Below, one piece after another: positions 1,615 through 26,145 of a stretch of DNA of 26,145 nt; within the stretch, counting starts at the first letter, position 1, and each line of letters starts with the position of its first letter. The position numbers and the translations under genes were made by a program. The notes below the pieces were generated by a model. The model worked only from the letters and a program-made list of their open reading frames with translations, was not told where the DNA came from and did no database searches. Origin of the DNA: a virus. The stretch is taken from positions 1 through 26,145 of IMG/VR virus record IMGVR_UViG_3300025870_001106. One strand, given 5' to 3'.

Positions 1615-2706
1615 ATGGCTACTAAATCATTCGATCCTTCAAAGTTTCGAAATAGTTTAACTAAATCAATTAAAGGTATGAGCGCAGGCTTTAATGATCC
1701 GCAAGACTGGATTAGCACAGGCAACTTTGCACTTAACTACCTACTGAGCGGAGACTTTCAAAAAGGTATTCCACTTGGTAAAGTATCAGTATTTGCCGGA
1801 GAGTCCGGTGCTGGTAAATCATATATTGTAAGCGGCAACATTGTTAAGGCAGCACAAGAACAAGGCATTTTTGTTGTTCTTATTGATAGCGAAAATGCAC
1901 TTGACGAAAGTTGGTTACAAGCACTTGGCGTCGAAACAACTGACGACAAAATACTAAAACTAAACATGGCAATGATTGACGATGTTGCTAAAACTATTAG
2001 TACATTTATGGATGACTATCGTAGTATGAACGAAGAAGATCGTCCTAAGGTGTTGTTTGTAGTTGACTCATTAGGCATGCTTATGTCACCAACTGAAGTT
2101 AGTCAGTTTGAAGCAGGTGATATGAAAGGTGACTTTGGTCGCAAAGCAAAGGCACTAAAAGCACTAGTAACTAACTGTGTTAATATGTTTGGTAGTTACA
2201 ATGTAGGTATGTGCGTTACTAACCACACATATGCATCTCAGGATATGTTTGATCCAGATGACAAGATCTCAGGTGGTTCAGGCTTTGTGTATGCGAGTTC
2301 AATGGTTGTTGCTATGAAGAAACTTAAACTTAAAGTAGATGCAGACGGCAACAAAACATCACAAGTACATGGTATTAGAGCAGCGTGTAAGGTAATGAAA
2401 ACACGTTACGCTAAACCCTTTGAAGGTGTACAAGTTGAGATTCCATATGAAACAGGCATGAATCCGTATTCCGGTATGTTTGATTTATTGGAAGGCAAAG
2501 GCTTGCTTGAGAAACAAGGCAATCGCTACAAGTACATTGATAGTAATGGCGAAGAAACACTTGAATATCGTAAGAAATGGACAGGTGAACTACTCGAAAT
2601 GGTTATGGCAGATTTACCAGCAAAAGAAGAACAAATGGTAAATATCGCTAACGCAACCGAAGAAGTTGTGGATCATGACGAGGAGCCAATGATCGATGAA
2701 CGATGA
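1615..2706 (+). CDS. uvsX: UvsX RecA-like recombinase
   Basis: UvsX is the phage RecA/RAD51 homologue that forms filaments on single-stranded DNA and carries out strand exchange in recombination-dependent replication. The 363 residues fit the family (T4 UvsX about 390). Walker A is GESGAGKS (62-69), the catalytic Glu region is DSENALDE (91-98), and Walker B is VLFVVD (146-151). The basic, flexible N-terminus and the C-terminal acidic tail (VVDHDEEPMIDER) are typical. The start follows AGGAG at 1605-1609. The gene lies directly after gp32 and overlaps the next small gene by 11 nt, so its product is made beside the proteins it works with. Confidence 0.95.
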   Translation: MATKSFDPSKFRNSLTKSIKGMSAGFNDPQDWISTGNFALNYLLSGDFQKGIPLGKVSVFAGESGAGKSYIVSGNIVKAAQEQGIFVVLIDSENALDESWLQALGVETTDDKILKLNMAMIDDVAKTISTFMDDYRSMNEEDRPKVLFVVDSLGMLMSPTEVSQFEAGDMKGDFGRKAKALKALVTNCVNMFGSYNVGMCVTNHTYASQDMFDPDDKISGGSGFVYASSMVVAMKKLKLKVDADGNKTSQVHGIRAACKVMKTRYAKPFEGVQVEIPYETGMNPYSGMFDLLEGKGLLEKQGNRYKYIDSNGEETLEYRKKWTGELLEMVMADLPAKEEQMVNIANATEEVVDHDEEPMIDER

Positions 2707-5336: not shown

Positions 5337-5344
5337 TATAAATA
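5337..5344 (+). promoter_or_regulatory. Late-type promoter of the nucleotidyltransferase-cupin gene
   Basis: TATAAATA is an exact T4 late-promoter consensus. It points away from the sulfotransferase promoter and again leaves only 5 nt before the ATG at 5350, which implies a leaderless or nearly leaderless transcript. Confidence 0.6.
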
Positions 5345-5349
5345 TCAGT

Positions 5350-8337: not shown

Positions 8338-9269
8338 AAGTAGTTAGTTATTTAAATGTAATACCTGCAAAAAATAAAAGTCAAGAAAAAACAGATATAT
8401 TACATAATTTTGTTGAAGGTGTTCGTATAAGAAATGATGAAGGATTAATACAGAACGAGCCTAGGATTGTTGACTGCGATGTAGCAGTAATACAAGGATG
8501 GACACATAGTAAAGGCAAAACTGGTACGCATTTACAATTACGTGAAAAGATTATCAAACATCAAATACAATCAGGAAAATATGTATGCACAGCAGATAGT
8601 AACTTGTTTTTGTATGCAAATAGTAGTAACAAGCCTCATCATTATCTCCGATATAGTTTTAATGGTGTATTTCCTAATACAGGTATATATTTTGACGATA
8701 ACATTGATCCAAATCGCTGGCAACAAATATCGCATCATTTACATATTGCACCACAAGCTAAGTTATCTAAAGGAAAATATATATTACTTTGCTGTCAGCG
8801 CAACGGCGGCTGGAGTATGGATGGCATAGACGTAGTAGATTGGGTAGTACGCACTGTACAGAAAATTAGAGAATACAGCGACAGACCAATTGTTGTAAGA
8901 GGCCATCCCGGTGATAAGGCTGCACAAACTTATCTATATCATCGTTATAATAGAATTAGTAAATTACCAGGAGTAAAAGTAACTCCGTTCGGCAGACCAT
9001 TAGAAGATGATTTACATAAATGTTGGGCTGTTGTAAATCATAACAGTAGTAGTATTGTAGGTCCTATTATCAAAGGCTATCCTGCATATATAACTGATTC
9101 TCATAGAAGTCAGTGTGCAGAAGTAGCACACCATGGATTCAAAAACATTGAAAGTCCTCAACAGTTTGATAGAGAAAAATGGCTACAACGTATTAGTATG
9201 TTTCATTGGAATTTCGAGGAATTACGTAGCGGTAAAGCATGGGCACATATGAGAAATTATGTCCAATAA
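8334..9269 (+). CDS. KpsC/KpsS-like GT-B-type transferase
   Basis: I take the ATG at 8334, which overlaps the previous stop as ATGA, as the start (311 aa); an ATG at 8316 in the same frame would add 6 residues. The C-terminal half matches the second domain of the preceding protein: SDRPIVVRGHPGDKA, WAVVNHNSSSIVGPIIKGYPAYI, and a tail FEELRSGKAWAHMRNYV. The N-terminal half (VVSYLNVIPAKNK, DCDVAVIQGWTHSKGK) looks like the first Rossmann-like domain of a GT-B fold. The HP and the S-x-x-G-x-x-x-G-x-P motifs fit capsule polysaccharide transferases that use CMP-Kdo. Its 3' end overlaps the reverse-strand GT gene by 13 nt. Confidence 0.7.
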   Translation: MKVVSYLNVIPAKNKSQEKTDILHNFVEGVRIRNDEGLIQNEPRIVDCDVAVIQGWTHSKGKTGTHLQLREKIIKHQIQSGKYVCTADSNLFLYANSSNKPHHYLRYSFNGVFPNTGIYFDDNIDPNRWQQISHHLHIAPQAKLSKGKYILLCCQRNGGWSMDGIDVVDWVVRTVQKIREYSDRPIVVRGHPGDKAAQTYLYHRYNRISKLPGVKVTPFGRPLEDDLHKCWAVVNHNSSSIVGPIIKGYPAYITDSHRSQCAEVAHHGFKNIESPQQFDREKWLQRISMFHWNFEELRSGKAWAHMRNYVQ

Positions 9270-10081
9270 CTTTCGCTTCTTGGTTTTATTAAATCTCTAG
9301 GTTTTGCACTTTTACCTAATTCTTTTCTGTCACCTTTTAAATGATCAAAGTATTTTCCCAAGTCGCTGTTTATAAAAGGATGTCCTTCGCCGTTTACTAA
9401 TCCAGCACTTATATTATAGAATCTTTCTCTTGGCCATTTTTCTTGTACAATTTTTCTTACTTCTTCAAAAACAAAACTATCGTGCCATTCTTCCATTTGA
9501 AATATTCCATCTTCGGCATTTTCATATACATATTCAAATTCGTGTAGAAAGTTTTTTCCTGCCTTTGTTTTTAAATTAATTCCATAAAAGCCACATTCGG
9601 GCCATTTCTTGCCTCTGCCTAAATAACTCATCCAAGCATTGTCTGGTGTAAAATTTTCAAACTGTTTAAGGCTTATTGGACTGTGTACATATGTATCAGC
9701 GTCTAACCAAACAATCCAATCAGTCTCACATCTTTTTGCTGCATCAAATACAGCATAAACTTTGTTTGCAAATCTAATTGCATTCCATTTAAAATCTTTA
9801 TGCCAGTCTTTGGGTCTGCGTTTTTTTATTTCATCAGGCGGCATGCCGTTAGCTTTGGGCACATCTTTCCAACGTTCTTTAAATGACATTAATTTTGGCA
9901 AATGATCTTTTTGATCTAAAATTTCTATACGAGGATCGTTGGTTGTAGGAGTACAATTTTCTGTATACAAATATAATTTTATATTCTTATCTACTCGATT
10001 ACTAAAACTATCAACAAAACGTTGACCATATAGATCTAATACAGGTTGATGAAATGTTGATACTACAGAAATTTTTGACAC
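9257..10081 (-). CDS. GT-A-type glycosyltransferase
   Basis: A 274-residue protein with a GT-A nucleotide-sugar fold: SVVSTFHQPVLDLYGQRF at the N-terminus, an aromatic/basic helix KWNAIRFANKVYAVFDAA (~98-115), and the metal site WIVWLDADTYVHSPI (122-136, with DAD 127-129). A later HDSFVFEE could carry the catalytic acid side. The first codon is GTG at 10081, chosen because AAGGA lies 8 nt upstream on the reverse strand and an ATG two bases earlier is out of frame. It is a lone reverse-strand gene, overlapping its forward neighbour tail to tail by 13 nt and leaving 39 bp to the next forward gene. Sugar and acceptor are unknown. Confidence 0.8.
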   Translation of the reverse strand: MSKISVVSTFHQPVLDLYGQRFVDSFSNRVDKNIKLYLYTENCTPTTNDPRIEILDQKDHLPKLMSFKERWKDVPKANGMPPDEIKKRRPKDWHKDFKWNAIRFANKVYAVFDAAKRCETDWIVWLDADTYVHSPISLKQFENFTPDNAWMSYLGRGKKWPECGFYGINLKTKAGKNFLHEFEYVYENAEDGIFQMEEWHDSFVFEEVRKIVQEKWPRERFYNISAGLVNGEGHPFINSDLGKYFDHLKGDRKELGKSAKPRDLIKPRSESYWT

Positions 10082-10120
10082 ATTAATATCCTTGTTAAAT
10101 ATATTACATGGTATTTAACA
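10082..10120. promoter_or_regulatory. Divergent control region with 9-bp inverted repeat
   Basis: TGTTAAATA (10093-10101) and TATTTAACA (10112-10120) form a perfect dyad that ends at the ATG of the forward gene. Each arm contains TTAAATA, close to the late element, one pointing each way so that the two predicted promoters face each other and overlap. The reverse gene also has AAGGA before its GTG; the forward gene has no evident ribosome site. Confidence 0.5.
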
Positions 10121-10972
10121 ATGAGATTTAGTTTATTCAAACAATATGGTGCATTAAACAGTAGACCAATATTCGATGCTTTTGAATATAGTCTAAAACA
10201 AGCTGGACATATAATCGAAGAAGATAGTATGCACAGCGATGTTGCTGTTATATGGAGTGTGTTGTTTAACGGACGTATGACTGGGAACAAACCTATATGG
10301 GACTACTATACTAAAACAGGACGTAAAGTTATTGTACTAGAAGTCGGTGGAATAAAACGAGGAACAACTTGGAAGGTAGGATTAAATGGAATCAACAGAA
10401 GTGCTTACTTTGGTGACAAAGACAATGATAGGGCTAGGGCTGATAGCTTGGGATTGGTTTGTAAACCTTGGAGATCCAACGGCAATTTTATTTTAATATG
10501 TGGACAACATGATAAAAGTTTGCAATGGCGTGATATGCCACGTATGAGCAATTGGTTCTTAAATACATACGATGAAATACGCAAACATACAGACCGTCCA
10601 ATTATATTTCGTCCGCATCCACGCTGTAGACTAGAACACATCGAGCGTGGACTTAGGCACGTAACAAGACAGGAGCCTCGACATGTTAACGGCACTTATG
10701 ATTCTTTTGATATGGGGTTTGATAATATACATTGCACTATCAGTTACAGTAGCAATCCTGGGATACATAGTGTCATCGAAGGCGTTCCTGCTTTTGTTAG
10801 TACTCATAGCATTGCTTATGATGTGGCCAATGACATAGACTTCCTACACGATATTGAAGATCCTCTAACACCAGATAGAACACAATGGCTAAACGATTAT
10901 GCATGGACAGAGTTTACTGTTGAAGAAATATCTGCTGGCTTACCACTGAAGAGATTGACACCTGCCCTATAA
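10121..10972 (+). CDS. KpsC/KpsS-like GT-B-type transferase (third relative)
   Basis: The 283-residue protein has the same plan as the protein at 8334 and the second domain of the one at 6631. An N-terminal part carries a DVAVIWSVLFNGR strand, comparable with DVAVIQGWTHSKG in the protein at 8334. Then come HTDRPIIFRPHPRCR (156-170), TISYSSNPGIHSVIEGVPAFVS and the tail TEFTVEEISAGLP. The three copies are divergent enough to be old duplications or separate acquisitions. RPHP is the best match in the set to the capsule-transferase His-Pro motif. Its end carries the -35 box of the next promoter. A Kdo-transferase function is an inference from the fold pattern and the presence of kdsA and kdsB about 4 kb away. 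Confidence 0.7.
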   Translation: MRFSLFKQYGALNSRPIFDAFEYSLKQAGHIIEEDSMHSDVAVIWSVLFNGRMTGNKPIWDYYTKTGRKVIVLEVGGIKRGTTWKVGLNGINRSAYFGDKDNDRARADSLGLVCKPWRSNGNFILICGQHDKSLQWRDMPRMSNWFLNTYDEIRKHTDRPIIFRPHPRCRLEHIERGLRHVTRQEPRHVNGTYDSFDMGFDNIHCTISYSSNPGIHSVIEGVPAFVSTHSIAYDVANDIDFLHDIEDPLTPDRTQWLNDYAWTEFTVEEISAGLPLKRLTPAL

Positions 10973-10983
10973 AGTGTTATAGT
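10955..10983 (+). promoter_or_regulatory. Sigma70-type promoter for the 378-aa gene and uvsW
   Basis: TTGACA (10955-10960), 17-bp spacer, TATAGT (10978-10983). The ATG at 10990 lies 6 nt after the -10 box, so transcription should begin at the start codon. ATAGTA (10979-10984) and TACTAT (10986-10991) form an inverted repeat across the -10 box and the start. Confidence 0.7.
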
Positions 10984-10989
10984 ACTACT

Positions 10990-12126
10990 ATGACATATAT
11001 TGAAGATTACCTTGAATACATTTGCAACAATCAACTTGATTCTTTACAATCTAATAATAATATATACTTTAGTATATACAAACAGACAGTACGAGGTGTA
11101 GGAATTACTGATAGACAATATGCTCTTGTCTTAAAAAAGATACAGGAGTATTTGGATGTACAGGATCTTCCTACCCGTATTCCGTTACGACACATTGATA
11201 GAAGCAAATATGTTAAAATTGTAGACAATAGTCATATGACAGAGTACTGGGATGTGCTCGATCAATCCAAAAGCAATTGGCAATGGATTAAAATTAGATT
11301 TCCGTTTAGCAAAAAAGATATACTCAAAATAGAAAAAATAAATCGATATACACACGGAAAAGAATACTATCATCAGAAAGGATCACACGAACATTATTAT
11401 AAACTTACTGGTGCTAATGTACGCCGTATAACACAGGCATTTGACACGTTTGAGTTTGACGAACAAGTAAAAAAATATAAAGACGAAGTAGATGATGTAA
11501 TAACTCGCACCAATGAAATTATAAATGATTTGCCTACACCGCAAACAGATTTTAATGATATTCAAAAATACGATAGGCGTTTTAGATTAGGACTTGTAAA
11601 TTTGTCAAAACCATTTACTAATAATTTATTATTAGACCAAGTAATTGACAGAAATGATCATTATTTTAATGTTCCAGAATCATCAAATAATATAAACAAT
11701 ATTGTTGAAATATTAATTGAACTTGATAGATTTCCGTTACTAGTATTAATCAACAAAGATAATAGTTATCAAGAATTAAGTAGTTTTTATAATGCAATAA
11801 AATATGTTGTGCCTAGCGAAAAACAAAGTGTATTATTTAGAGTAACAGATCCAAATAGTGAAGAAAATGTTAACAGTTTTGTACGACATAACAATCTTAA
11901 CAATTGGGTTGACAAAGAAACAAAAATCGTGTATATTAGTAAAGATAAGTTACCGAAGGTATTGTTTACAAGTGAGTTTAGACCTATAACTAGTTTTAGC
12001 AAAACAAATTCTAAGAATCAACAGTTAGTTGATCTTTATATTAACCATTGCTGTGATTTAAATTTATCACTAGATAATGAATTTTGGGGTAACAGTTATC
12101 AAAGATATATTAAAGGAAGATTTTAA
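10990..12126 (+). CDS. Unknown 378-aa phage protein upstream of uvsW
   Basis: I do not recognise a named family. The N-terminal part (YFSIYKQTVRGVGITDRQYALVLKKI, then IPLRHIDRSKYVKI) has the feel of a conserved core protein found beside uvsW in marine T4-like phages. The stretch ending in GSHEHYYKLTGANVRRI includes several His and Tyr that could be functional. There is no Walker motif, no Cys cluster and no membrane segment. It is read from a strong promoter with its ATG at the predicted +1, and uvsW starts 2 nt after its stop, so the two are surely co-transcribed. A role in recombination or fork processing is plausible from position only. Confidence 0.85.
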   Translation: MTYIEDYLEYICNNQLDSLQSNNNIYFSIYKQTVRGVGITDRQYALVLKKIQEYLDVQDLPTRIPLRHIDRSKYVKIVDNSHMTEYWDVLDQSKSNWQWIKIRFPFSKKDILKIEKINRYTHGKEYYHQKGSHEHYYKLTGANVRRITQAFDTFEFDEQVKKYKDEVDDVITRTNEIINDLPTPQTDFNDIQKYDRRFRLGLVNLSKPFTNNLLLDQVIDRNDHYFNVPESSNNINNIVEILIELDRFPLLVLINKDNSYQELSSFYNAIKYVVPSEKQSVLFRVTDPNSEENVNSFVRHNNLNNWVDKETKIVYISKDKLPKVLFTSEFRPITSFSKTNSKNQQLVDLYINHCCDLNLSLDNEFWGNSYQRYIKGRF

Positions 12127-12128
12127 AG

Positions 12129-13592
12129 ATGCCAACGTGCAAACTTATAATCGAAGATGAAGTAAACATTAAGATCGAAGGACTTGATGTTGATGTACGG
12201 CGGAAGTTATCAAATGCTCTCAAGTTTGATGTTCCATATGCACGTTATATGCCACAGTATAAACTAGGACGCTGGGATGGCAAAGTTGCATTCTTTGGCA
12301 TTGGTGGCACTGGCTATGTTAATCATCTTGATGTAGTTACACAAGTGCTTGCAAAAAACAATGTACAAATAGTTGACATTGAAGATAGGAGACATCCTAT
12401 TGACTTAAACTTTCCACAAGTATCAGAACGTTATTGGGCAGACCAGGGAGTGTGTTGGCCTAAAGGACACCCAGCAGAAGGTGAAGAAATTATTCTGCGA
12501 GATTACCAAGTTGAAGCAATCAATAACTTTGCTAACAACCCACAGAGTCTACAGCAAATTGCAACAGGCGCAGGCAAAACTATTACTACTGCTACACTAT
12601 CACACATGAGTGAAAAGTATGGACGTAGTTTGGTCATTGTTCCTAACAAGAGCCTAGTAGAGCAAACTGAAGAAGACTATATTAACTGTGGGTTGGATGT
12701 AGGGGTGTACTTCGGCGACAGGAAACAATTAGGTAAGACTCATACAATATGCACTTGGCAATCCTTAAATATTTTGGACAAGAAGCATAAGGACGGATCA
12801 GCAGTATTATCACTTGCAGAGTTCTTAGAAGGTGTGAGCACTATCATTGTCGACGAAGTACACCAAGCCAAAGCAGAAGTTCTCAAGAACCTGCTTACAC
12901 GCAACCTACGTAATGCACCCATACGTTGGGGACTAACCGGTACAGTACCTAAAGAGAAGTTTGAGTTTGAAAGTATTCACGCTAGTTTAGGACCAGTTAT
13001 TGGACAGATTAGTGCTAAAGAATTGCAAGACAAAGGTGTATTATCAGAGTGTCATGTTAATGTAGTACAGTTAATAGACACTGTAGTACATTCAGATTAT
13101 CAATCAGAATTAAAATATTTAACAACAAATCAAAACAGATTAGAATATATAGGCAAATTATTAAACACAGTAAAAGAAACAGGCAATACACTAATACTAG
13201 TAGACAGAATTAGTGCTGGAGAAGCACTAGCAGAACTAATACCAGGCAGCACATTTGTAAGCGGCGCTGTTAAAAACAAAGACAGAAAAGAAACATATGA
13301 TACGATTCGTGAAGGGACTAATGAAGTCATTATCGCAACCTACGGGGTTGCCGCTGTTGGACTTAATATACCGAGGATCTTTAATCTTGTTCTTCTTGAG
13401 CCTGGCAAGTCTTTTGTTCGTGTTATTCAAAGTATTGGTAGAGGTGTAAGAAAGGCAAAGGACAAAGACTTCGTTCAAATATGGGATCTTACAAGTACTT
13501 GTAAGTTTGCGAAGCGGCACCTTACCCAACGTAAAAAGTTTTATAAGGAAGCTCAATACCCATTCACAATAGAAAAAGTGGATTGGAATTAA
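12129..13592 (+). CDS. uvsW: UvsW RNA-DNA/branched-DNA helicase
   Basis: UvsW is a superfamily 2 helicase that unwinds R-loops and branched DNA and switches T4 from origin-dependent to recombination-dependent replication. The 487 residues (T4: 503) show the N-terminal substrate domain with KLGRWDGKVAFF, Q-motif region LRDYQVEAI, Walker A ATGAGKT (145-151), VPNKSLVEQ (motif Ia), DEVH (242-245), GLTGT (motif III), ATYGVAAVGLNIP (motif V) and QSIGRGVRK (434-442, motif VI). The start follows AAGGAAG in the end of the upstream gene. Its stop shares a base with the next ATG (TAATG). Confidence 0.96.
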   Translation: MPTCKLIIEDEVNIKIEGLDVDVRRKLSNALKFDVPYARYMPQYKLGRWDGKVAFFGIGGTGYVNHLDVVTQVLAKNNVQIVDIEDRRHPIDLNFPQVSERYWADQGVCWPKGHPAEGEEIILRDYQVEAINNFANNPQSLQQIATGAGKTITTATLSHMSEKYGRSLVIVPNKSLVEQTEEDYINCGLDVGVYFGDRKQLGKTHTICTWQSLNILDKKHKDGSAVLSLAEFLEGVSTIIVDEVHQAKAEVLKNLLTRNLRNAPIRWGLTGTVPKEKFEFESIHASLGPVIGQISAKELQDKGVLSECHVNVVQLIDTVVHSDYQSELKYLTTNQNRLEYIGKLLNTVKETGNTLILVDRISAGEALAELIPGSTFVSGAVKNKDRKETYDTIREGTNEVIIATYGVAAVGLNIPRIFNLVLLEPGKSFVRVIQSIGRGVRKAKDKDFVQIWDLTSTCKFAKRHLTQRKKFYKEAQYPFTIEKVDWN

Positions 13593-14098
13593 TGAATATA
13601 TTAACACTAGAAAATAAAACATTTGAGCTTAATGCTCTACCAGACGAAGTTGATGACGCTATGCGATTTAGTGTACTTGATAATAGCGATCCAAAAGATC
13701 CTGATTTCTTTTTTGTACCTCTAATCTTTTTAGAATCATTCAATTCACCTGCTGTCGTACTAAACATAAACGGACATGAAGTAACAATGCCATTGGATTG
13801 GTGCATTGCAGTAGGATGTAGTCAGGCCGGCAGCGACTTAGAAGTATTACCTTTAACAAGCCTTAACGAAAGAGGATTTGAAGCATTTCTTTTTAATCCT
13901 TTAAGTAGTTTTAAACCAAACTTTGGACATTTAGAAATAGTAAATTTTTACAATGATGTAAAATGGTATTTTCCAAAAATGAAGAACGGCCAGCTACTTA
14001 GTGTACCAGTAAGCACAGGCGAGAATCCGGATTGTGCTTTTTTTGTAAAAGACATAAATCGACAAAGCGAAGTTATTGACTTTGGAAAGTTATTATAG
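13592..14098 (+). CDS. Unknown 168-aa phage protein after uvsW
   Basis: The ATG at 13592 overlaps the uvsW stop by 1 nt and gives 168 residues; a TTG at 13583 in frame is a weaker start. I recognise no catalytic motif. It is mildly acidic, with a DDAMRFSVLDNSDPKDPDFFFVPL block, a PLDWCIAVG strand, PLTSLNERGFEAFLFNPL, and a basic stretch WYFPKMKNGQLLSVPV. The repeated strand-like segments suggest a compact beta-rich domain. Being coupled to uvsW, it could be a partner of the helicase, but nothing in the sequence shows this. Confidence 0.8.
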   Translation: MNILTLENKTFELNALPDEVDDAMRFSVLDNSDPKDPDFFFVPLIFLESFNSPAVVLNINGHEVTMPLDWCIAVGCSQAGSDLEVLPLTSLNERGFEAFLFNPLSSFKPNFGHLEIVNFYNDVKWYFPKMKNGQLLSVPVSTGENPDCAFFVKDINRQSEVIDFGKLL

Positions 14099-14107
14099 GA
14101 GAGTAAA

Positions 14108-14461
14108 ATGAAAGCAGGAAAGATTTGGGGACAAACTGAACTTATACATGCTAACGGCGTACTAGAGTTTCACCGCATTGAATTCAAAGGAGGCTACAAA
14201 TGTAGCGAACATGAACATCAATTTAAATGGAATGGTTTTTACGTAGAGTCAGGTAAAATGCTTGTGCGTGTGTGGCAAAAAGATTACGATTTAGTAGATG
14301 AAACTATTCTTGGTCCAGGCGATTTTACACAAGTTAAACCTGGTGTGATACATCAGTTTGAAGGACTGGAAGACGGTGTAGCATTTGAACTATACTGGGC
14401 AGAATTTAATCACAGCGATATAGTGAGAAGAAGTGTTGGATCAGAAACTAATACCGGGTGA
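14108..14461 (+). CDS. Small cupin-domain protein
   Basis: A 117-residue single cupin: CSEHEHQFKWNGFYVESGKMLV (the first conserved cupin block, with His35 and His37 as likely metal ligands) and GPGDFTQVKPGVIHQFEGL (the second block, with a third His). Such proteins are often isomerases or epimerases of sugar phosphates or simple metal-binding proteins. It opens a four-gene coupled run that leads into kdsA and kdsB, so a role in making or modifying a sugar precursor is a reasonable guess. The ribosome site TAGGAGAG lies 8 nt before the ATG. Residue identity of the substrate is not visible. Confidence 0.8.
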   Translation: MKAGKIWGQTELIHANGVLEFHRIEFKGGYKCSEHEHQFKWNGFYVESGKMLVRVWQKDYDLVDETILGPGDFTQVKPGVIHQFEGLEDGVAFELYWAEFNHSDIVRRSVGSETNTG

Positions 14462-14702
14462 AGCATTAATATACGAACGTGCTAATGGTGTAGTATATGC
14501 AAGATATAGAGACCCGCCGCATAACACTACACCTCGTTGGGTTATTGGTGGAGATCCGGGTGCCGTGGCAAGAGCACAAGGCAAATTGCTAGATTACGGC
14601 GAATGGTTAAAATTATGTGATGCGACTGAAGAACATCCTACTTTAAAAATGCAAATGGATAAACTTGTTAATACGTATTACTTAATAAAGGATAGTAAAT
14701 GA
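14433..14702 (+). CDS. Small conserved-type protein between the cupin and kdsA
   Basis: An 89-residue protein starting at GTG 14433 (a TTG at 14436 is equally possible), inside the end of the cupin gene, with GAGAAG just upstream. Its sequence has a well-ordered look: IPGEALIYERANGVVYARYRD, PRWVIGGDP, ARAQGKLLDYGEWLKL. No known catalytic motif is seen. It ends with an ATGA overlap with kdsA. The tight coupling on both sides suggests it is translated with the Kdo genes, though similar small genes are common in marine T4-like phages and the link may be only positional. Confidence 0.8.
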   Translation: MLDQKLIPGEALIYERANGVVYARYRDPPHNTTPRWVIGGDPGAVARAQGKLLDYGEWLKLCDATEEHPTLKMQMDKLVNTYYLIKDSK

Positions 14703-15481
14703 AAATTATAGCAGGACCTTGTCAACATGAGACACTAGAACAAAGTTTAGAAATTGCAACAGAGTGTAAACGGGTGTGTGATAAGTATGGCATCGAATAT
14801 TACTTTAAAGCAAGTTTTGATAAAGCAAACCGTACAAGTGCAAACGGTATGCGTGGCCAAGGATTATATTCTACGCTGTTTGACTTTAGAGAAATAAAAA
14901 AAACTTTAGGTGTAAAAACATTAACAGATGTACACAATCAACGACAAGTTTACACAATACGTATTGAATTTGAAGATGCTGTTGATGTACTACAAATTCC
15001 TGCATTTTTGTGTAGACAAACAGACTTAATTTGTGCTGCTGTTAATACAGGTATGATTGTAAATATTAAAAAAGGACAATTCCTTGCACCTTGGGACGTC
15101 AAAGGCATACTGAGCAAAACAGAAGGCGCAAAGGAAGTTTGGATAACAGAAAGAGGAACAAGTTTTGGATATAATACTTTGGTTGTTGATTTCACTGGGC
15201 TTCAGTATATGCTTGAGCATTACGATGTACCTTGCGTTTTTGACGTTACCCACGCTGTCCAAAAGCCAGGAGGCAATGGGGAATCGAGTGGCGGGAATCG
15301 TGATTACGTTCCAGGTCTTGCTCGTGCTGCCGCTGCTATGGGCATTGACAACTTCTTTTTAGAAGTACACGCTGACCCAGATAATGCTCCTAGTGATGGA
15401 CCTAATATGCTACGCTTAGAAGACTTTGCAGAAACAGTGCGTCAACTATATCATATCAATCAAACTATAAAGGGATTTTAA
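14699..15481 (+). CDS. kdsA: KdsA, 3-deoxy-D-manno-octulosonate-8-phosphate synthase
   Basis: The enzyme condenses phosphoenolpyruvate with arabinose-5-phosphate to give Kdo-8-phosphate. The 260 residues (bacterial KdsA about 265-285) show IAGPC (4-8), FKASFDKANR (36-45), LTDVH (75-79), IPAFLCRQTDL (100-110), NIKKGQFLAPWD (122-133), ERGTSFGYN (151-159), FDVTHAVQKPGG (181-192) and DGPN. Cys8, His185, Glu222 and Asp233 coincide with the metal ligands of the metal-dependent KdsA class (Aquifex type), whereas E. coli KdsA has Asn in place of Cys. All catalytic blocks are present, so it should be active. It is coupled to the next gene by TAATG. Confidence 0.95.
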   Translation: MKIIAGPCQHETLEQSLEIATECKRVCDKYGIEYYFKASFDKANRTSANGMRGQGLYSTLFDFREIKKTLGVKTLTDVHNQRQVYTIRIEFEDAVDVLQIPAFLCRQTDLICAAVNTGMIVNIKKGQFLAPWDVKGILSKTEGAKEVWITERGTSFGYNTLVVDFTGLQYMLEHYDVPCVFDVTHAVQKPGGNGESSGGNRDYVPGLARAAAAMGIDNFFLEVHADPDNAPSDGPNMLRLEDFAETVRQLYHINQTIKGF

Positions 15482-16149
15482 TGACAACAGCAATACTAAT
15501 ACCTGCTAGATATGCCAGCACACGTTTTCCTGGTAAAATGATGGCAAAATTAAATGGAGTGCCATTAGTAGAACATGTCTATAATATTTGTTCTGCTACA
15601 GGGCTAGACACTTATGTACTAACTGATCACAAGGATATTTTTGATCACCTCGGCCCGTCAAAATGTATAATGACACAAGACGCAGACAACGGTACTGAAC
15701 GTTGTATGCAAGTTATTGATGAAAAATTACAGTATGATAGATATATTAATGTTCAAGGCGATATGCCAGATATTACAGCAGAAATAATACGTGCAGTTGA
15801 AAAAGAATTAGAACGCAGTGACGTAGCAACTGCATATACTCCGATGAATTTAGACTTGCGTTCTGATCCAAACTGTGTTAAACTAATACATAATAGAGGT
15901 AGAGCACATTGGTTCTTGAGAGCTAGTTTGCAGTATGGAGATCATCATTTAGGTATATATGGTTATAATCGTGAAATAAAAACAATTTACAACGTAAGTA
16001 CCAAGTACGCCGAGGAAACACTAGAGCAATTAGAACAACTGCGTTGGATACAAAACGGAATTAAAATAGGTGTCGTTGAAGTTGAGTTTAACGGCATAGA
16101 AATAAACTCACCACAAGATTTAGAAGATTGGCACAAAAACAATGGCTAG
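15481..16149 (+). CDS. kdsB: KdsB-like CMP-Kdo synthetase
   Basis: KdsB activates Kdo with CTP to CMP-Kdo, the donor for Kdo transferases. The 222 residues (E. coli 248) start with AILIPARYASTRFPGKMM (4-21), the CTP-binding signature, followed by TQDADNGTERCMQVI (the family has T-x-x-x-H-x-S-G-T-[DE]-R; the usual His-x-Ser is Asp-Asn here), NVQGDMP, HLGIYGYN and LEQLEQLRWIQNGIKIGVVEVEF, ending INSPQDLEDW. It lacks about 25 residues of the E. coli protein, mostly loops. A Kdo-8-phosphate phosphatase (KdsC) is not seen in the window and could come from the host. It overlaps the next gene by 8 nt. Confidence 0.93.
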   Translation: MTTAILIPARYASTRFPGKMMAKLNGVPLVEHVYNICSATGLDTYVLTDHKDIFDHLGPSKCIMTQDADNGTERCMQVIDEKLQYDRYINVQGDMPDITAEIIRAVEKELERSDVATAYTPMNLDLRSDPNCVKLIHNRGRAHWFLRASLQYGDHHLGIYGYNREIKTIYNVSTKYAEETLEQLEQLRWIQNGIKIGVVEVEFNGIEINSPQDLEDWHKNNG

Positions 16150-16297: not shown

Positions 16298-16757
16298 AGA
16301 ATTAGACTTATTCAAAGAACTTATTCCAAGTATTGATATGGGCTTCAAAGAGCTGTATGATGCTGCCGGCGAAGATGGCAAGAAAGATATCAAAGGCGAC
16401 TTGTGGAATCTCAACAGATACATTAGTAGTGTCAAAGGCAATTACGAAAAAACTGCATTAGCAGTGTTTAAAGTTAATGAGTATTACAATAAAAACTGGA
16501 ATGTACTAGGCGGAACCAACCACGTAAAACTACAATGGCAACTATTATGTGTTGCTGGTAATACAGGTAAAAAACAATTTCATCCGTGGATTGGTTTGAA
16601 AAAGAAAAAAGACGATAGTAGTAAAGCAGTAAAATTATTATCAAACATATATCCAAATATGAAAATGGACGAGGTCGAAACACTTGCTAGAATATCTACA
16701 AAAAAACAAATCAAAGAACTCGCCCAAGAACACGGTTACGAAAAAGTTGACATCTAA
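16287..16757 (+). CDS. 62: gp62-like clamp-loader small subunit
   Basis: In T4, gp62 joins gp44 to load the gp45 clamp. The ATG at 16287 overlaps the preceding gene by 11 nt and gives 156 residues; a longer frame from 16245 lies wholly inside that gene and is less likely. The pattern NLNRYISSV (~38-46), a helical middle with HVKLQWQLLCVAGN, a basic KKQFHPWIGLKKKK, and ARISTKKQIKELAQEHGY at the end matches the layout of marine gp62 (N-R-x-L-S, L-Q-x-x-L-L, K-x-x-x-W, I-L-T-x-x-Q-I). The call is from pattern and length; no gp44 or gp45 is in this window, so gp62 is separated from its usual partners or they lie elsewhere. Confidence 0.6.
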   Translation: MPNKELDLFKELIPSIDMGFKELYDAAGEDGKKDIKGDLWNLNRYISSVKGNYEKTALAVFKVNEYYNKNWNVLGGTNHVKLQWQLLCVAGNTGKKQFHPWIGLKKKKDDSSKAVKLLSNIYPNMKMDEVETLARISTKKQIKELAQEHGYEKVDI

Positions 16758-17427
16758 GTACACATGTGAATATTGCAATAAAAGTTACATGAAAGAAAGT
16801 ACATTGTTAGCTCATGTATGTGAGCCTAAACGACGATGGTTACAAAAAGACGATAAGCCTGTACAAGTTGGATTTTATGCATTCCAAAGATTTTACAAAC
16901 TAAGTGCAGGACATAAGAAAGATAAAATATATGAAGATTTTGTTAAGTCATCATTTTACAATGCTTTTGTAAAGTTTGGCAGTTTTGTTAATAACGTGCG
17001 ACCTTTATATCCTGACAAATACATTGACTATGTTGTTACCAGTAATGTAAAACTTGATCACTGGTGCAGAGAAGAAATGTATGAAAAATATGCAGTAGAA
17101 CTTATTCGCAAAGAAGGTGTTGAAACTGCACTGGAACGTAGCATTCAAACAATGACAAAATGGGCTGAAGAAAAAAATAGTGTGTATAATCATTATTTTT
17201 ACTATGCAAGTTCAAACAGAATCACTTGGGATATCAAAGACGGAAAAATAAGTCCTTGGTTAGTATTAAATTGTGCTAGTGGTAAAAAAGTTTTAAATGA
17301 CTTTAACGACGAACAACTAAATATGCTAGGATTTGTTTTAGACCCTAGTCATTGGGCTTTGCGTTTTAAAAGACAGCCATCAGATGTGGCTTTTGCAAAA
17401 CAAGTCATTAAGGAAATGCAATTATGA
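16747..17427 (+). CDS. Zinc-finger protein of unknown function
   Basis: The TTG at 16747 is the best start: it falls in the last codons of the gp62-like gene and keeps the zinc finger intact, giving 226 residues. Residues 7-25 are CEYCNKSYMKESTLLAHVC, a C-x2-C-x12-H-x-C finger that resembles C2H2 fingers but ends in Cys. The following CEPKRRWLQKDDKPVQVGFYAF starts a helical body with DHWCREEMYEKYAVEL and ISPWLVLNCASGKKVL. I know this layout as a recurring uncharacterised family in marine T4-like phages. The stop overlaps the next start (ATGA). DNA or RNA binding is suggested by the finger and by the next-door replication gene. Confidence 0.8.
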   Translation: MTSKYTCEYCNKSYMKESTLLAHVCEPKRRWLQKDDKPVQVGFYAFQRFYKLSAGHKKDKIYEDFVKSSFYNAFVKFGSFVNNVRPLYPDKYIDYVVTSNVKLDHWCREEMYEKYAVELIRKEGVETALERSIQTMTKWAEEKNSVYNHYFYYASSNRITWDIKDGKISPWLVLNCASGKKVLNDFNDEQLNMLGFVLDPSHWALRFKRQPSDVAFAKQVIKEMQL

Positions 17428-17855
17428 AAATATTAATATTTGGGCTGCCAGGCAGTGGCAAAACAACACTGGCTAAACCATTTGCTGAATTAGTAGGCGG
17501 TATACACATTAATGCTGACGAAATACGCAGCCGTTACAACGATTGGGACTTCAGCATGGAAGGACGTATGAGACAAGCACAACGTATGAGACACCTAAGT
17601 GATGGTGTAGTACTAGCAGGTAAAATTGCTGTTACTGACTTTGTTTGTCCAACAGAAGAAGCACGTAAAGCCTTTGACCCTGACTTTACTGTGTGGATGG
17701 ATACTATTAAAGAAGGTAGGTTTGAAGATACAAACAAAGTGTTTGAACAGCCGCCTAAATGCGATTATCATGTAGCAGATTGGTTTGATAATACTCACGA
17801 AACACTAATGCTTGCAATTGAGAGATACCAGACCTGGAGAGAGAAAAATGTTTGA
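17424..17855 (+). CDS. APS-kinase-like P-loop kinase
   Basis: A 143-residue P-loop kinase: Walker A GLPGSGKT (7-14), NADEIR (30-35) at the position of the D-G-D-N-x-R of adenylylsulfate kinase (CysC), then DFSMEGRMRQAQRMRHL, matching GFS-x-x-D-R-x-E-x-I-R-R, and IAVTDFVCPTEEAR, matching a-F-I-S-P-Y-R. This supports an APS kinase-like enzyme that would make PAPS, the donor for the sulfotransferase at 4705. It is shorter than CysC (about 200 aa) and its substrate residues are not all conserved, so other small-molecule kinases (for example sugar or nucleotide kinases) remain possible. It overlaps the previous gene by 4 nt and the next gene by 8 nt. Confidence 0.75.
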   Translation: MKILIFGLPGSGKTTLAKPFAELVGGIHINADEIRSRYNDWDFSMEGRMRQAQRMRHLSDGVVLAGKIAVTDFVCPTEEARKAFDPDFTVWMDTIKEGRFEDTNKVFEQPPKCDYHVADWFDNTHETLMLAIERYQTWREKNV

Positions 17856-18467: not shown

Positions 18468-18639
18468 AACATTACAAGACGGTACCGAAGTAGAAGTATT
18501 CGAAGAGCCGATAACACTAGTCGTACATACCAAGTGTCCTCCTAAATGGAAACTGGTTGACATGGAAACTGGAATCGAGTATACTGGACAAGTACCGGAT
18601 GAAAACGGTGAATACCACTGGAAGAGAACAGATGCCTGA
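18457..18639 (+). CDS. Small 60-aa phage protein
   Basis: I choose GTG at 18457 because GGAG (18444-18447) lies 9 nt before it; the ATG at 18442 would place that ribosome site inside the gene. The protein (NFRTLQDGTEVEVFEEPITL, CPPKWKLVDMETGIEYTGQ) is a likely all-beta small domain of unknown function. It overlaps its neighbours by 11 nt and 8 nt. Confidence 0.65.
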   Translation: MNFRTLQDGTEVEVFEEPITLVVHTKCPPKWKLVDMETGIEYTGQVPDENGEYHWKRTDA

Positions 18640-19198
18640 TATTGATATCGACTTTGCAGATAGAGAGATACTACTTTCTCAAATTAAGCACAGAGTTGCA
18701 AAGCTAGACACAGATAAAAAACACAACACTGGGGTGTATGTAACTGAATGTCCGCACAACCCTATCGATAATCTGTCAACTGTTGATTACAAAACCGCAG
18801 AAGAGCGTGGATACTTTAAATTAGATTTTCTTAATGTAAGCATATACAAAGACGTTACAAACGAAACACACTTAAACACACTAATGGAGAAGGAACCCTT
18901 ATGGCAACTACTGGAACACAAAGACTTTTCAGATCAAGTATTTCATCTAAACGGACACAGCGAACTATTGCAGCAATTGAAACCTACTTCGGTAGAACAG
19001 TTGGCAGCGACACTAGCAATAATTCGGCCTGCGAAGAGGCATCTTGCCAACGAAACATGGCAAACGATATTCAAAGAAGTTTGGAAGAAGCCTGAAGACG
19101 GCAGTTACTTCTTTAAAAAAGCACATGCATTTGCATATTCTATGAGTGTAATAGTACACATGAATTTAATTTGTGAAGGACTTACTTCTTCCGCATAA
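18632..19198 (+). CDS. Compact DnaE (DNA polymerase III alpha)-like protein
   Basis: The 188-residue protein is made almost wholly of short DnaE motifs in the DnaE order. MPDIDIDFADR (1-11) matches P-D-[FI]-D-[VI]-D-F, with Asp3 and Asp5 at the places of the E. coli catalytic Asp401 and Asp403. HNTGVYVT (31-38) matches H-A-x-G-V-V-I; GYFKLDFLNV (60-69) matches v-K-F-D-F-L-G-L, with Asp65 at the place of Asp555. Then come VFHLNG (103-108), LKP (116-118), LAIIRPA (128-134) and FFKKAHAFAYS (160-170), which match VFQLES, L-x-P, AL-x-RPGP and F-N-K-S-H-A-x-A-Y. DnaE is about 1,160 aa, so the PHP, finger and C-terminal parts are missing. It might be a relict, a decoy or a new enzyme. The start is within the previous gene. 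Confidence 0.8.
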   Translation: MPDIDIDFADREILLSQIKHRVAKLDTDKKHNTGVYVTECPHNPIDNLSTVDYKTAEERGYFKLDFLNVSIYKDVTNETHLNTLMEKEPLWQLLEHKDFSDQVFHLNGHSELLQQLKPTSVEQLAATLAIIRPAKRHLANETWQTIFKEVWKKPEDGSYFFKKAHAFAYSMSVIVHMNLICEGLTSSA

Positions 19199-19547
19199 CT
19201 TGAATACTTTTACGTTTAACTCGTTTTATATTCATATTATTCAAATTTACACAAGGTCCTAAACTTACTCTTACATCTTTAGTGTTCATTGTTACTAAAC
19301 TATAGTTTAATATTCCAATTTCTTTTTTTAGGAATATGTTAATTGGAATCATCCTGTTTGATTCCCACCACCAAATTTCTCCAAATTCTAAAAATGCTTT
19401 TTTGTGCTCGTCAGTTTTTAACCTTGTAAATACATACATACTTGTGACACTGCTGTCTTGATTTGCAATTATGCCAACATATTCGTTCTGCCCGTAAGCA
19501 ACAACACTAATAAAAGGATAATTTTGTTCTATATTCTTTAATAACAT
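19182..19547 (-). CDS. Small reverse-strand protein of unknown function
   Basis: A 121-residue protein that I cannot name. NEYVGIIANQDSSVTSMYVF, FGEIWWWESNRMIPINIFL and SLVTMNTKDVRVSLGP are the best-formed parts; the tail is strongly basic (KRVKRKSIQVMRKK), which could bind nucleic acid. It overlaps the DnaE-like gene tail to tail by 17 nt and is read divergently from the virion-type gene, with 31 bp between start codons. This repeats the layout of the two other lone reverse-strand genes. No clear late element was found in front of it. Confidence 0.75.
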   Translation of the reverse strand: MLLKNIEQNYPFISVVAYGQNEYVGIIANQDSSVTSMYVFTRLKTDEHKKAFLEFGEIWWWESNRMIPINIFLKKEIGILNYSLVTMNTKDVRVSLGPCVNLNNMNIKRVKRKSIQVMRKK

Positions 19548-20581: not shown

Positions 20582-21562
20582 ATGAGTATTGTATCCGACA
20601 CAATCACAGCACACCTGCCTGGCAAGCGTAAGACTACTCCTAGTGGTTGGACTAGCTTCAATGCACCCTGTTGTCATCACACAGGTAACACAATGGACAA
20701 GCGTGGGCGTGGCGGACTTATTTCAGAAGGTGATACAGTTAGCTATCACTGCTTCAACTGCGGATACAAAGCAAGCTGGCAACCGGGCAGACCGGTATCA
20801 CACAAGCTACGTAAGCTGCTACAGTGGCTCAACTGTAGTGACGATACAATAACGAAGCTGACGTTTGATGTGATGCGTATAAACGAAGGTGTAGAGGTTG
20901 CAGAGCGCAAGATAGAACTGCCTACGTTTGAAACTGTACCACTGCCGCCGGATGCTGTAAAGATCACAGATATAAAAGACTTCAACAAGTTTAGTATGGC
21001 TATACTAGAGTATATGTCTACAAGACAACTAAACTTAGATGATACAGATTACTATTGGAGCCCTAGCTTAGGATACCGCGACAGGCTTATTGTTCCATTT
21101 TATTATGAGAAACGTATTGTAGGTTGGACTGCTAGAACCATTACAGAAGACAAGAAGCCCAAGTATCTCACAGAAACACAGCCTGGATTTGTTTATGGAT
21201 TAGATGAACAAAATCATAATAAGATATTTTGTATTTTATGCGAAGGTCAAATAGATGCTATACACATAGACGGGTGTGCGTTAGGAGGTAGCGAAATAAA
21301 TGATCAACAAGCATTACTACTTGATAGATTGCAAAAAGAAATAATTGTTGTTCCTGATCGAGATAAAGCAGGTAGTAAACTTGTAGAACAGGCAATAGAA
21401 AGAGGCTGGAGTGTTAGTTTGCCAGAGTGGGATGACAGTATTAACGATGTAGGTGATGCTGTTGCAAAATACGGAAGGCTATATACATTGTATAGTATTG
21501 CTAATGCAGCAGAAAGTTCTCCATTAAAAATTAGACTAAGGGCAAAGAAGTGTTTCCAGTAA
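20582..21562 (+). CDS. 61: T4-type gp61 DNA primase
   Basis: gp61 makes the RNA primers for lagging-strand synthesis as a partner of gp41. The 326 residues (T4: 342) open with a zinc domain: Cys30/Cys31, His33 and the pair Cys57-x2-Cys60 in YHCFNCGY. The TOPRIM core follows: CEGQIDA (220-226, with Glu221) and VVPDRDKAG (256-264, with Asp259 and Asp261), the metal-binding residues of DnaG-type primases. The RNA-polymerase-like segment DRLIVPFYYEKRIVGWTAR (167-185) is also typical. Both ends are sound. It is transcribed from a consensus promoter with a near-leaderless start. The next gene starts inside its last codons. Confidence 0.95.
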   Translation: MSIVSDTITAHLPGKRKTTPSGWTSFNAPCCHHTGNTMDKRGRGGLISEGDTVSYHCFNCGYKASWQPGRPVSHKLRKLLQWLNCSDDTITKLTFDVMRINEGVEVAERKIELPTFETVPLPPDAVKITDIKDFNKFSMAILEYMSTRQLNLDDTDYYWSPSLGYRDRLIVPFYYEKRIVGWTARTITEDKKPKYLTETQPGFVYGLDEQNHNKIFCILCEGQIDAIHIDGCALGGSEINDQQALLLDRLQKEIIVVPDRDKAGSKLVEQAIERGWSVSLPEWDDSINDVGDAVAKYGRLYTLYSIANAAESSPLKIRLRAKKCFQ

Positions 21563-23160: not shown

Positions 23161-24666
23161 ATGATAACATGGGGCATTAGTGCAAACAGTCATGATGCTG
23201 CTCTAGCAGTATTTACAGATGACGGTTTAGAGTTTGCAAGCCACAGTGAACGATTCAGTGGTGTAAAAAATGATGCGCATTTAAATGATAAATTAATAGA
23301 GTATGCAAAAAAATGGGGAGAACCTGATGAAATTATTTGGTACGAAAGACCCTTTGTCAAAAGCCTTAGACAACTTCGAGCAGGGCAAGGATTCAACTTT
23401 AGGGAAAACAATATTAGTCGTTATCTTCGACAGTATGGTATATCTGCTCCTATTCGCTATACTGATCATCACCTTGCCCATGCTGCTGCCGGTTTTTATA
23501 CTAGTCCTTTTAGAGAAGCCACTGTTGTTTGTATTGACAGTATTGGAGAGTTTGATACACTCACTATTTGGAACGCCGACGGAGAAAAAGGAATCAAGAA
23601 GATATACAGCCAGCAGTACCCACATTCCGTGGGATTATGGTACTCCGCGTTCACGCAAAGACTAGGACTAAAGCCACAAGAGGACGAATACATCCTCATG
23701 GGTATGGCAGCATACGGCGACCCCCTAAGGTTCTTCAACGAAATACTACATGATTTTTTCCACCCCCTTGACGATGATACCTTTAAACAAATATTTTTCA
23801 ACACACCCACAGTGAAGTTACGTCATAATTTACATAGGGGGTGTATGTGGTGGAGACCAGACCTTACCACAGAACAAGACTATTTTGACATAGCCGCATC
23901 GGTACAGGCAGTATATTCATACCTACTCAAGTATATAAGTAACTGGGCTAGATGGAAATCGCCATCGGGTAACTTGGTTTTAATGGGCGGGTGTGCTTTA
24001 AATTGCAGTGCCAACGGCAGCATTAAGAGTGACTGGAACAACATGTACATTATGCCTAACCCAGGTGATGCTGGATCAGCTATAGGCGCTGTACTAGCAC
24101 ACAAAAAAGAATTTATGTCTATGCCGCATGTGTACACCGGTTATGAAATAGAAGGAGAATATCCAGTTGAAGAAGCACTACAGGAATTACTTACTACTGG
24201 CATTGTTGGTGTTGCCAATGGCCGTGCTGAGTTTGGACCTAGAGCTTTTGGACACCGCTCCCTCCTTGCAGACCCCCGCGGCGCCGATATCAAAGATAGA
24301 GTCAATGCCATCAAGCGAAGACAGAAGTTTAGACCTTTTGCGCCAGCAGTATTGGAGGAACATGCAGCTACCTATTTCGACGGATATGTCAGCCCCTTCA
24401 TGCAATACACTGCAACTTGCACGGATCCTGGATTACCTGCAATCATCCACGGGGACGGCACCTCTAGGGTACAGACAGTTTCTAAAAATCAAAGCGTGGG
24501 CTTTAGAAAATTGCTAGAACGTTGGCACGAAGAGACAGGGTGTCCTATATTGTTGAACACAAGCCTAAACATCAAAGGCAAACCTATTGTAAACACAATA
24601 GAAGAAGCACAAGAGTTTGAAGCACACTATGGAGTGAAAGTATGTACGGCTGCTGCAACAACGTAA
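23161..24666 (+). CDS. NodU/CmcH-family carbamoyltransferase
   Basis: The family transfers carbamoyl from carbamoyl phosphate to hydroxyls of sugars (NodU) or antibiotics (CmcH). The 501 residues open with ITWGISANSHDAALAVF (2-18), then HHLAHAAAGFYTSPF, CIDSIGEFDTLTIW, EYILMGMAAYGDP, LMGGCALNCSANG, and in the second domain NGRAEFGPRAFGHRSLLADP and LLNTSLNIKGKPIVNT. Both catalytic domains are present. It is shorter than typical bacterial members (about 550-600 aa). The middle (~23560-24540) uses more C/G-rich codons, with runs such as GACCCCC and CCCCCGCGGCGCC, than the AT-rich ends, which suggests a mosaic origin. In this window it fits the glycan system as a decorating enzyme. Confidence 0.93.
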   Translation: MITWGISANSHDAALAVFTDDGLEFASHSERFSGVKNDAHLNDKLIEYAKKWGEPDEIIWYERPFVKSLRQLRAGQGFNFRENNISRYLRQYGISAPIRYTDHHLAHAAAGFYTSPFREATVVCIDSIGEFDTLTIWNADGEKGIKKIYSQQYPHSVGLWYSAFTQRLGLKPQEDEYILMGMAAYGDPLRFFNEILHDFFHPLDDDTFKQIFFNTPTVKLRHNLHRGCMWWRPDLTTEQDYFDIAASVQAVYSYLLKYISNWARWKSPSGNLVLMGGCALNCSANGSIKSDWNNMYIMPNPGDAGSAIGAVLAHKKEFMSMPHVYTGYEIEGEYPVEEALQELLTTGIVGVANGRAEFGPRAFGHRSLLADPRGADIKDRVNAIKRRQKFRPFAPAVLEEHAATYFDGYVSPFMQYTATCTDPGLPAIIHGDGTSRVQTVSKNQSVGFRKLLERWHEETGCPILLNTSLNIKGKPIVNTIEEAQEFEAHYGVKVCTAAATT

Positions 24667-24794
24667 TACAAACAGAACATCGAGAAATAATAGAAGTTGA
24701 CAATCACAAGTTTTATGTTATAATAAATTATTGTAAGACATGTGGACAAGTAAAAGCGCAATCTCATATCACGGAAGCAAAGAATGGCAACTAG
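24642..24794 (+). CDS. 50-aa zinc-ribbon-like protein upstream of gp41
   Basis: ATG 24642 has GGAG at 24631-24634 (spacing 7) and overlaps the carbamoyltransferase end by 25 nt; the TAG at 24792-24794 overlaps the start of gp41 by 11 nt. The protein MYGCCNNVIQ...INYCKTCGQVKAQ has Cys4, Cys5, Cys31 and Cys34 in two pairs, a small zinc-ribbon pattern. Function unknown. It is supported by its ribosome site and by coupling at both ends. Confidence 0.65.
   Translation: MYGCCNNVIQTEHREIIEVDNHKFYVIINYCKTCGQVKAQSHITEAKNGN
24697..24724 (+). promoter_or_regulatory. Sigma70-type promoter for gp41 inside the 50-aa gene
   Basis: A consensus TTGACA (24697-24702), 16-bp spacer and consensus TATAAT (24719-24724). 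Transcription would begin near 24731, giving gp41 a leader of about 53 nt with GGAAG near 24773. The -10 box is inside a short dyad (ATAAT, 24720-24724, and ATTAT, 24727-24731). Confidence 0.7.
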
Positions 24795-26145
24795 ACAAAA
24801 CACGGATTATGGTTATGATATACAAAAAGTATATCTAGAGATGTTTATGACGGACGCAGAAAGTTTTGTGCGCTGTCAGGGTGTTTTTGAGCCAGATACA
24901 TTTGATAGAAGGTTGGTTGAGCCTGCAAAGTTTATCAAGAACTATGTAGACGAACACAATGCATTGCCTACGTTTGATATTGTAAATGCAGCGACAGATA
25001 GCAACTTGAAAGATCCTGGGCAACTTGCTGAGAATCACTATGACTGGTTGTTGCAAGACTTTGAAACATTCAGCAAACACAAAGCACTTGAAGCAGCTAT
25101 TCTAAAGAGTGCTGACTTGTTGGAGAACGGTGAGTATGGTGCATGTGAAGACTTGGTCAAGCAGGCTGTACAGATTGGACTGCAAAAAGACTTGGGTACA
25201 GATTACTTTGCGGATCCTAGAGGCAGACTAGAAAGCATCAAAGACAAAAACGGACAGATCAGCACAGGCTGGCCGGCACTAGACAAGAAACTGTTTGGCG
25301 GATTCAACAGAGGCGAACTTAACATCTTTGCAGGTGGTAGTGGTAGTGGTAAGAGTTTGTTCTTGGCTAATATGGGTGTGAACTGGTGTTTGCAAGGATT
25401 GAATGTTATGTACTTGACATTTGAGCTTAGTGAAGCGTTGGTTAGTATGCGTGTAGATAGTATGACAACTGAGATTCCAAGTCGTGATGTGTTCAAAAGC
25501 ATTGACGATGTTGAAATGAAGGTTAAGATTATTGGCAAGAAGTCAGGTGCGTTCCAAGTCAAGTATATGCCCACAGGCAAGAACAGCAATGATGTTAGAG
25601 CATACTTGAAAGAATACGAGATCAAAACAGGCAAGAAGATTGATGTATTGTTGATTGACTACTTGGATCTTATGCATCCAAATGCTGTTAAGATTAGTGC
25701 AGAAAACTTGTTTGTCAAAGACAAGTATGTAAGTGAAGAACTACGCAACTTGGCTATGGAGCTCAACACTATCTTTGTTACAGCATCGCAGTTGAATCGT
25801 GGTGCTGTGGAAGAAATTGAGTTTGATCACTCGCACATATCAGGTGGTATTAGTAAGATCAACACAGCAGACAACTTGATTGGTATCTTTACAAGTAGAG
25901 CAATGCGTGAGCGTGGACGCTATCAAATACAGTTGATGAAGACACGTAGTAGTAGTGGCGTTGGACAAAAGATTGACTTGGAGTTTGATGTAGACAGTTT
26001 GCGCATTAGAGACTTAGGCGAAGACGAAGATGACAACAACTACAACTCTACTGGTACATCCAACAACAGCAGCATACTCAACAATTTGAAACGAAACAGT
26101 GGCACAGTTGTTGAAAAAGAAGATCCTAGCGACGGTGCAACTGTA
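24784..26145 (+). CDS. 41: T4-type gp41 replicative DNA helicase (3' end cut)
   Basis: gp41 is the hexameric 5'-3' helicase that works with gp61 primase at the fork. The frame is open to the right edge, giving 454 residues of a protein that is 475 in T4, so only a short tail is missing. The N-terminal helical domain is followed by STGWPALDKKLFGGFNRGEL and Walker A GGSGSGKS (184-191), MYLTFELSE, LLIDYLDLM (Walker B region) and TASQLNRGAV, then KINTADNLIGIFTSR and the arginine-rich LMKTRSSSGVGQKI, as in the DnaB-type core. The last ~40 residues are Asn/Ser-rich and look disordered. The start ATG follows GGAAG and overlaps the 50-aa gene. Confidence 0.95.
   Translation, partial: MATRQNTDYGYDIQKVYLEMFMTDAESFVRCQGVFEPDTFDRRLVEPAKFIKNYVDEHNALPTFDIVNAATDSNLKDPGQLAENHYDWLLQDFETFSKHKALEAAILKSADLLENGEYGACEDLVKQAVQIGLQKDLGTDYFADPRGRLESIKDKNGQISTGWPALDKKLFGGFNRGELNIFAGGSGSGKSLFLANMGVNWCLQGLNVMYLTFELSEALVSMRVDSMTTEIPSRDVFKSIDDVEMKVKIIGKKSGAFQVKYMPTGKNSNDVRAYLKEYEIKTGKKIDVLLIDYLDLMHPNAVKISAENLFVKDKYVSEELRNLAMELNTIFVTASQLNRGAVEEIEFDHSHISGGISKINTADNLIGIFTSRAMRERGRYQIQLMKTRSSSGVGQKIDLEFDVDSLRIRDLGEDEDDNNYNSTGTSNNSSILNNLKRNSGTVVEKEDPSDGATV

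Follow-up and report, generated by a model that had tools for sequence, protein, structure and literature searches.

The stretch analysed here, the 26,145 nucleotides of the uncultured virus contig IMGVR_UViG_3300025870_001106 in IMG/VR (the window), encodes a 188-residue protein that carries the active-site motifs of DnaE, the α subunit of bacterial DNA polymerase III (Pol III α), and that corresponds to the C-terminal half (C-half) of a split, minimal C-family polymerase. The open reading frame and its motifs are exactly as described in an earlier interpretation based on the nucleotide sequence alone (the sequence-only reading). The chain is short and standalone, opening at the DxDxD motif (MPDIDID), and its ATG, which follows a Shine-Dalgarno-like element, overlaps the stop codon of the preceding open reading frame (Table 1). 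The protein matches PHROG 11778 ('DNA polymerase') with an E-value of 1e-58 and, more weakly, the DnaE-type PHROG 405, a larger phage DnaE family (E=2e-9); searches against Pfam and NCBIfam gave sub-threshold DnaE matches only. A profile of 67 homologues compared with the PDB retrieved Pol III α chains (M. tuberculosis, E. coli and Taq) in every case but one, which is the last in the list (E=3.5). The AlphaFold model of the C-half has a predicted local distance difference test (pLDDT) value of 88, and the top 14 Foldseek matches of this model in the PDB are all Pol III α or other C-family polymerases, eight of them at a probability of 1.00, with template modelling scores of 0.38-0.45 by query length. 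The median ratio of nonsynonymous to synonymous substitution rates (dN/dS) is 0.14 over 154 pairs, with a maximum of 0.29, which is indicative of purifying selection. Thus, the profile, structural and selection data concur that the protein is a real, selected fragment of a C-family polymerase.

In the HMMER alignment, M1 of the protein is equivalent to M399 of E. coli DnaE and to position 461 of the Taq enzyme, and D3 and D5 therefore correspond to E. coli D401 and D403. D65 is aligned with D581 of M. tuberculosis in the KxDFL motif, equivalent to E. coli D555, so that both alignments support the catalytic triad assigned in the sequence-only reading, and D7 is equivalent to E. coli D405. D401, D403 and D555 are absolutely conserved throughout the C-family, and D405 is DnaE-specific, the corresponding residue in PolC being Asn (PMC3919608). 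All three catalytic Asp residues are invariant in the 67 C-half sequences, as are D7, H31, G34, K63, W91, P118, R132, P133, K163 and H165. D5 and D65 are separated by 60 residues, as first counted, and by 60-65 residues across 19 genomes, as against about 150-165 in DnaE. The sequence-only reading was correct in recognizing a deletion here but took the lost region for the fingers; the DnaE segment deleted between these residues is the thumb insertion (PMC11646218). The fingers are shortened too, at positions after Asp65, as seen upon mapping the protein on a full DnaE.

A search of long related genomes with a DnaE palm model revealed a second small gene, the product of which stops where the C-half begins. 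This N-terminal half (N-half; PHROG 11127, the partner family of PHROG 11778) is ~170-190 residues long, comprises the DnaE segment preceding PDIDIDF and carries the GxGRGS motif, which is invariant in 47/47 N-halves. It terminates as ...WGVGRGSSVASYVLYLIGVHxxxSxxYxLDxxEFL(R/K), 35-37 residues past GxGRGS in all 19 genomes compared. In the long genomes, the two halves cover the DnaE profile in a complementary manner (N-half, ~20-96; C-half, ~97 onward), and when mapped on a full-length DnaE (L326) they occupy residues 275-405 and residues 412-435, 523-654 and 742-772, respectively, the remainder being deleted. The model of the relatives' N-half likewise has a pLDDT of 88, and the confident Foldseek matches of both models in the PDB are to C-family polymerases only. 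The split enzyme has no PHP domain, thumb, HhH or OB and lacks a large part of the fingers, and a third piece bearing HhH or PHP was not found in five long genomes, which yielded no HhH (HHH_6) and no PHP match above the family cut-off, with a single sub-threshold PHP match in G002. Thus, although the protein is indeed a compact relative of DnaE, the idea of a single compact remnant has to be given up because the N-half gene is found in the relatives, and the protein is probably one of two subunits encoded by separate genes. A profile search of the window identifies the C-half only, whereas the N-half is present in long relatives, including G002 and G003. By analogy with these, the window phage presumably has an N-half of its own, which would be located beyond the ends of the 26-kb contig and hence out of reach of the sequence-only reading. 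The N-half also matches PHROGs 13169 (463 residues) and 7513 (461 residues) near their C-terminal ends, a sequence similarity that hints at further DnaEs of larger size split at this position; the phage DnaEs examined for further splits are single full-length genes.

The C-half was found in 63 of 50,697 phage records (E≤0.01). Of the 60 such records listed, at least 59 recur in the highest-scoring N-half records, which are set clearly apart by score from the full-length DnaEs. In IMG/VR, at least 556 stretches encode the C-half and at least 583 the N-half; the latter were found with an alignment as the query, as a search of IMG/VR with the single N-half sequence of Phosso gave no matches. Both halves are present in eight of the nine IMG/VR contigs of at least 230 kb that have one of them. 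They also occur, together with a family B polymerase (PolB, gp43), in the complete 141-kb genome of Alishewanella phage Slicko01, and the pair therefore extends beyond jumbo genomes. A polymerase of its own had been anticipated for this T4-like genome, and the relatives do carry one: PolB is present in 4/4 complete phage genomes and in eight long contigs, and its DTDS and SLYP motifs are retained in the five intact frames read. In Slicko01 (OQ508956.1, 3529-5033) and PAC2 (PP408249.1, 202949-206726), PolB lies in two frames, and in the related phage MIJ3 its split is accounted for by an intein. A bacterial origin of the split polymerase was considered and rejected; the genome scan outside phages gave only two close matches, both in metagenome-assembled archaeal bins and probably phage contigs, besides distant full DnaEs, and a plasmid search gave no match to the split polymerase.

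In the window, as in RaK2, PA5oct-like phages, Phosso, Atu_ph07 and Vibrio phages, the C-half gene is situated upstream of gp61/gp41; wherever these have uvsW annotated in the vicinity, the C-half gene lies downstream of it. In the majority of the phages examined, the N-half gene has GroES and the gp44 clamp loader as neighbours. The convergent gene of PHROG 11637 is present in 86 of 90 related loci, on the opposite strand in all 86, and overlaps the C-half stop by 4-26 bp in most relatives; Slicko01 has a convergent overlapping gene at the same position. The zinc finger gene of PHROG 11058 is near the C-half in 87 of the 90 loci, and its product is a candidate partner protein. Scans of the window with Rfam models and for tRNAs gave no matches.

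Table 1. Features of the window in and around the C-half gene
Feature	Positions	Strand	Basis
UvsX recombinase	1615..2706	+	
UvsW helicase, upstream neighbour	12129..13592	+	
Upstream gene with C2H2-like zinc finger, PHROG 11058	16684..17427	+	
Shine-Dalgarno-like GGAAGAG, 5' of ATG	18620..18626	+	read directly
C-terminal half of split minimal DnaE, 188 aa, PHROG 11778	18632..19198	+	open reading frame, profile and structure matches
D3-I-D5-I-D7 motif; D3/D5 are the Mg2+ ligands D401/D403 of E. coli, D7 is D405	18638..18652	+	alignment, conservation
H31-N-T-G34, counterpart of DnaE KHxxG region; H31 and G34 invariant	18722..18733	+	
K63-L-D65, third catalytic Asp (E. coli D555) and invariant Lys	18818..18826	+	
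I131-R132-P133, invariant; DnaE fingers RP motif	19022..19030	+	
K162-K163-A-H165, counterpart of DnaE FNKSH motif	19115..19126	+	
Convergent gene, PHROG 11637; 3' end overlaps C-half gene by 17 bp	19182..19547	-	
gp61-type primase, downstream neighbour	20582..21562	+	also synteny in relatives
gp41-type DnaB helicase, runs off contig	24784..26145	+	

Based on these findings, we hypothesize that the two chains probably act together as an enzyme accessory to PolB, either a DNA polymerase or a nucleotidyltransferase. The protein of the window would act as the C-terminal subunit of a naturally split minimal C-family polymerase, binding Mg2+ and template, and the gene elsewhere in the phage genome would supply the N-terminal subunit with its GxGRGS nucleotide-binding motif. 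Non-covalent association of the two would rebuild a Pol-beta-like palm, and the resulting enzyme of ~370 residues, devoid of PHP, thumb, HhH and OB, would work alongside PolB, most likely in gap filling or in the extension of primers or recombination intermediates. A reassembled active enzyme is preferred over a relict or a decoy because the invariant metal-binding and nucleotide-binding residues are divided between two proteins that nearly always co-occur. Since the thumb is gone, a distributive gap-filling or primer-extending role is our best guess, with a non-templated nucleotidyltransferase as the second choice.

Several observations weigh against this model. The loss of the thumb and of a large part of the fingers makes the grip on the primer-template and the processivity of the enzyme doubtful, and the product of the two genes could be a non-templated nucleotidyltransferase. 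Our literature search found no biochemical data on the split enzyme. The 262-kb contig G001 has a C-half without an N-half, though this contig is probably incomplete and also lacks PolB, and the window itself contains the C-half only. In favour of the model, the evolutionary distances of the N- and C-halves are correlated (r=0.87 over 19 genomes; equalled in 0/2000 permutations), but this correlation, being without a third-gene control, shows shared phylogeny and not contact.

The alternative that deserves most attention, though we consider it unlikely, is that the halves reassemble into an enzyme that is active but non-templated, and that serves in end-tailing, nucleotidylation of RNA or protein, or primer making. 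Such an enzyme would be in keeping with the loss of the thumb and of most other parts that bind DNA, which leaves little more than a Pol-beta-like catalytic core with a short segment for template binding, and with the presence of a complete replicative PolB; however, the DnaE fingers motifs IRP and FKKxH are still invariant, and both genes reside in replication neighbourhoods. Small size, domain loss and the separate PolB are also compatible with non-catalytic proteins that bind a host or phage replication factor as decoy, scaffold or regulator, but a scaffold has no need of metal-binding Asp residues and a GxGRGS motif that are invariant across very distant phages, and with the low dN/dS this makes a non-catalytic role improbable.

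The sequence-only reading had left room for a relict as well as a decoy, and neither agrees well with a dN/dS of 0.14 and with catalytic residues that are invariant in the N-half as well as in the C-half. The large deletions relative to DnaE are what a decaying copy of a captured host dnaE might display; yet the gene is under purifying selection and has hundreds of homologues in IMG/VR, its breakpoint and neighbourhood are constant and near matches outside phages are few, and we regard decay as very improbable. Equally remote is an artefact, or an intein-split DnaE with halves that are ligated into a full polymerase. Split inteins are known in cyanobacterial DnaE, and the PolB of MIJ3 is a precedent among the relatives; nonetheless, there is no room for intein parts because nothing extra follows the fixed N-half end and at most ~20 residues precede the DxDxD motif of C-halves. 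A split intein was rejected as intein sequence is found at neither end, and the lack of HhH, and of PHP above the cut-off, in the five genomes is likewise contrary to a full polymerase.

A 'minimal', split Pol III α has already been described in jumbo phages (Iyer et al. 2021, PMC7824862; group 2.2), and the protein of the window is equivalent to its C-terminal part. The gene thus adds one member to a published family, from a contig of an uncultured virus that, judging by the phage group it resembles, is presumably marine. Our additions to that description are the constancy of the breakpoint, the invariance of the catalytic residues, the conservation of the neighbourhood and the occurrence of the pair in a phage with a complete genome of 141 kb, Slicko01, which is below the jumbo class discussed there; our literature searches found no later work on the split enzyme. 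For the marine jumbo phage cluster PGC_A, a PF07733 gene is reported to be the only gene that is both unique to the cluster and carried by half or more of its phages (51.9%; PMC9123017). Of the two halves, only the N-half passes the cut-off of PF07733, so this marker is probably in part the N-half; the passages of that survey consulted here mention neither the split nor the C-half.

The active-site motifs of the split enzyme, D405 among them, follow one another as they do in bacterial DnaE1 (Pol III α), but the enzyme is encoded by two genes and is devoid of PHP, OB, HhH, the thumb, the C-terminal domains and a large part of the fingers. It has the fold of the full-length phage DnaEs (PHROG 405; Gordonia, Streptomyces and Bacillus phages) with weak sequence similarity to them, whereas these are single genes of 1000+ residues in the phages examined, with clearly separate scores. 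We hold it about evenly plausible that a strictly two-chain, thumb-less DnaE palm of ~370 residues, naturally rebuilt from two separately expressed halves, serves many large marine and enterobacterial T4-like phages as a second, specialised polymerase in addition to PolB, and is the smallest known C-family polymerase. A replicative-type polymerase has here been pared down to its palm and cut in the middle of the active site, yet is kept intact across distant phages, which raises the questions of how little of DnaE a catalytic enzyme requires and why a bacterial-type enzyme is retained by a phage that already has PolB. Members of the family are common in virus metagenomes; their breakpoint is fixed, two companion genes are conserved alongside them, and only two small proteins are involved.

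The window also encodes a full carbamoyltransferase (Carbam_trans_N and _C; 23161-24666, + strand) between gp61 and gp41, and, near the C-half, a small P-loop kinase resembling APS kinase (17424-17855, + strand); a sulfotransferase is present on the same contig. Surface-glycan genes are dispersed around uvsW (3378-16149) and comprise an FkbM methyltransferase, GT25 and GT8 glycosyltransferases, the sulfotransferase, a cytidylyltransferase-cupin fusion, a DAHP/KDO-8-P synthase-like enzyme and a CMP-KDO-type cytidylyltransferase.
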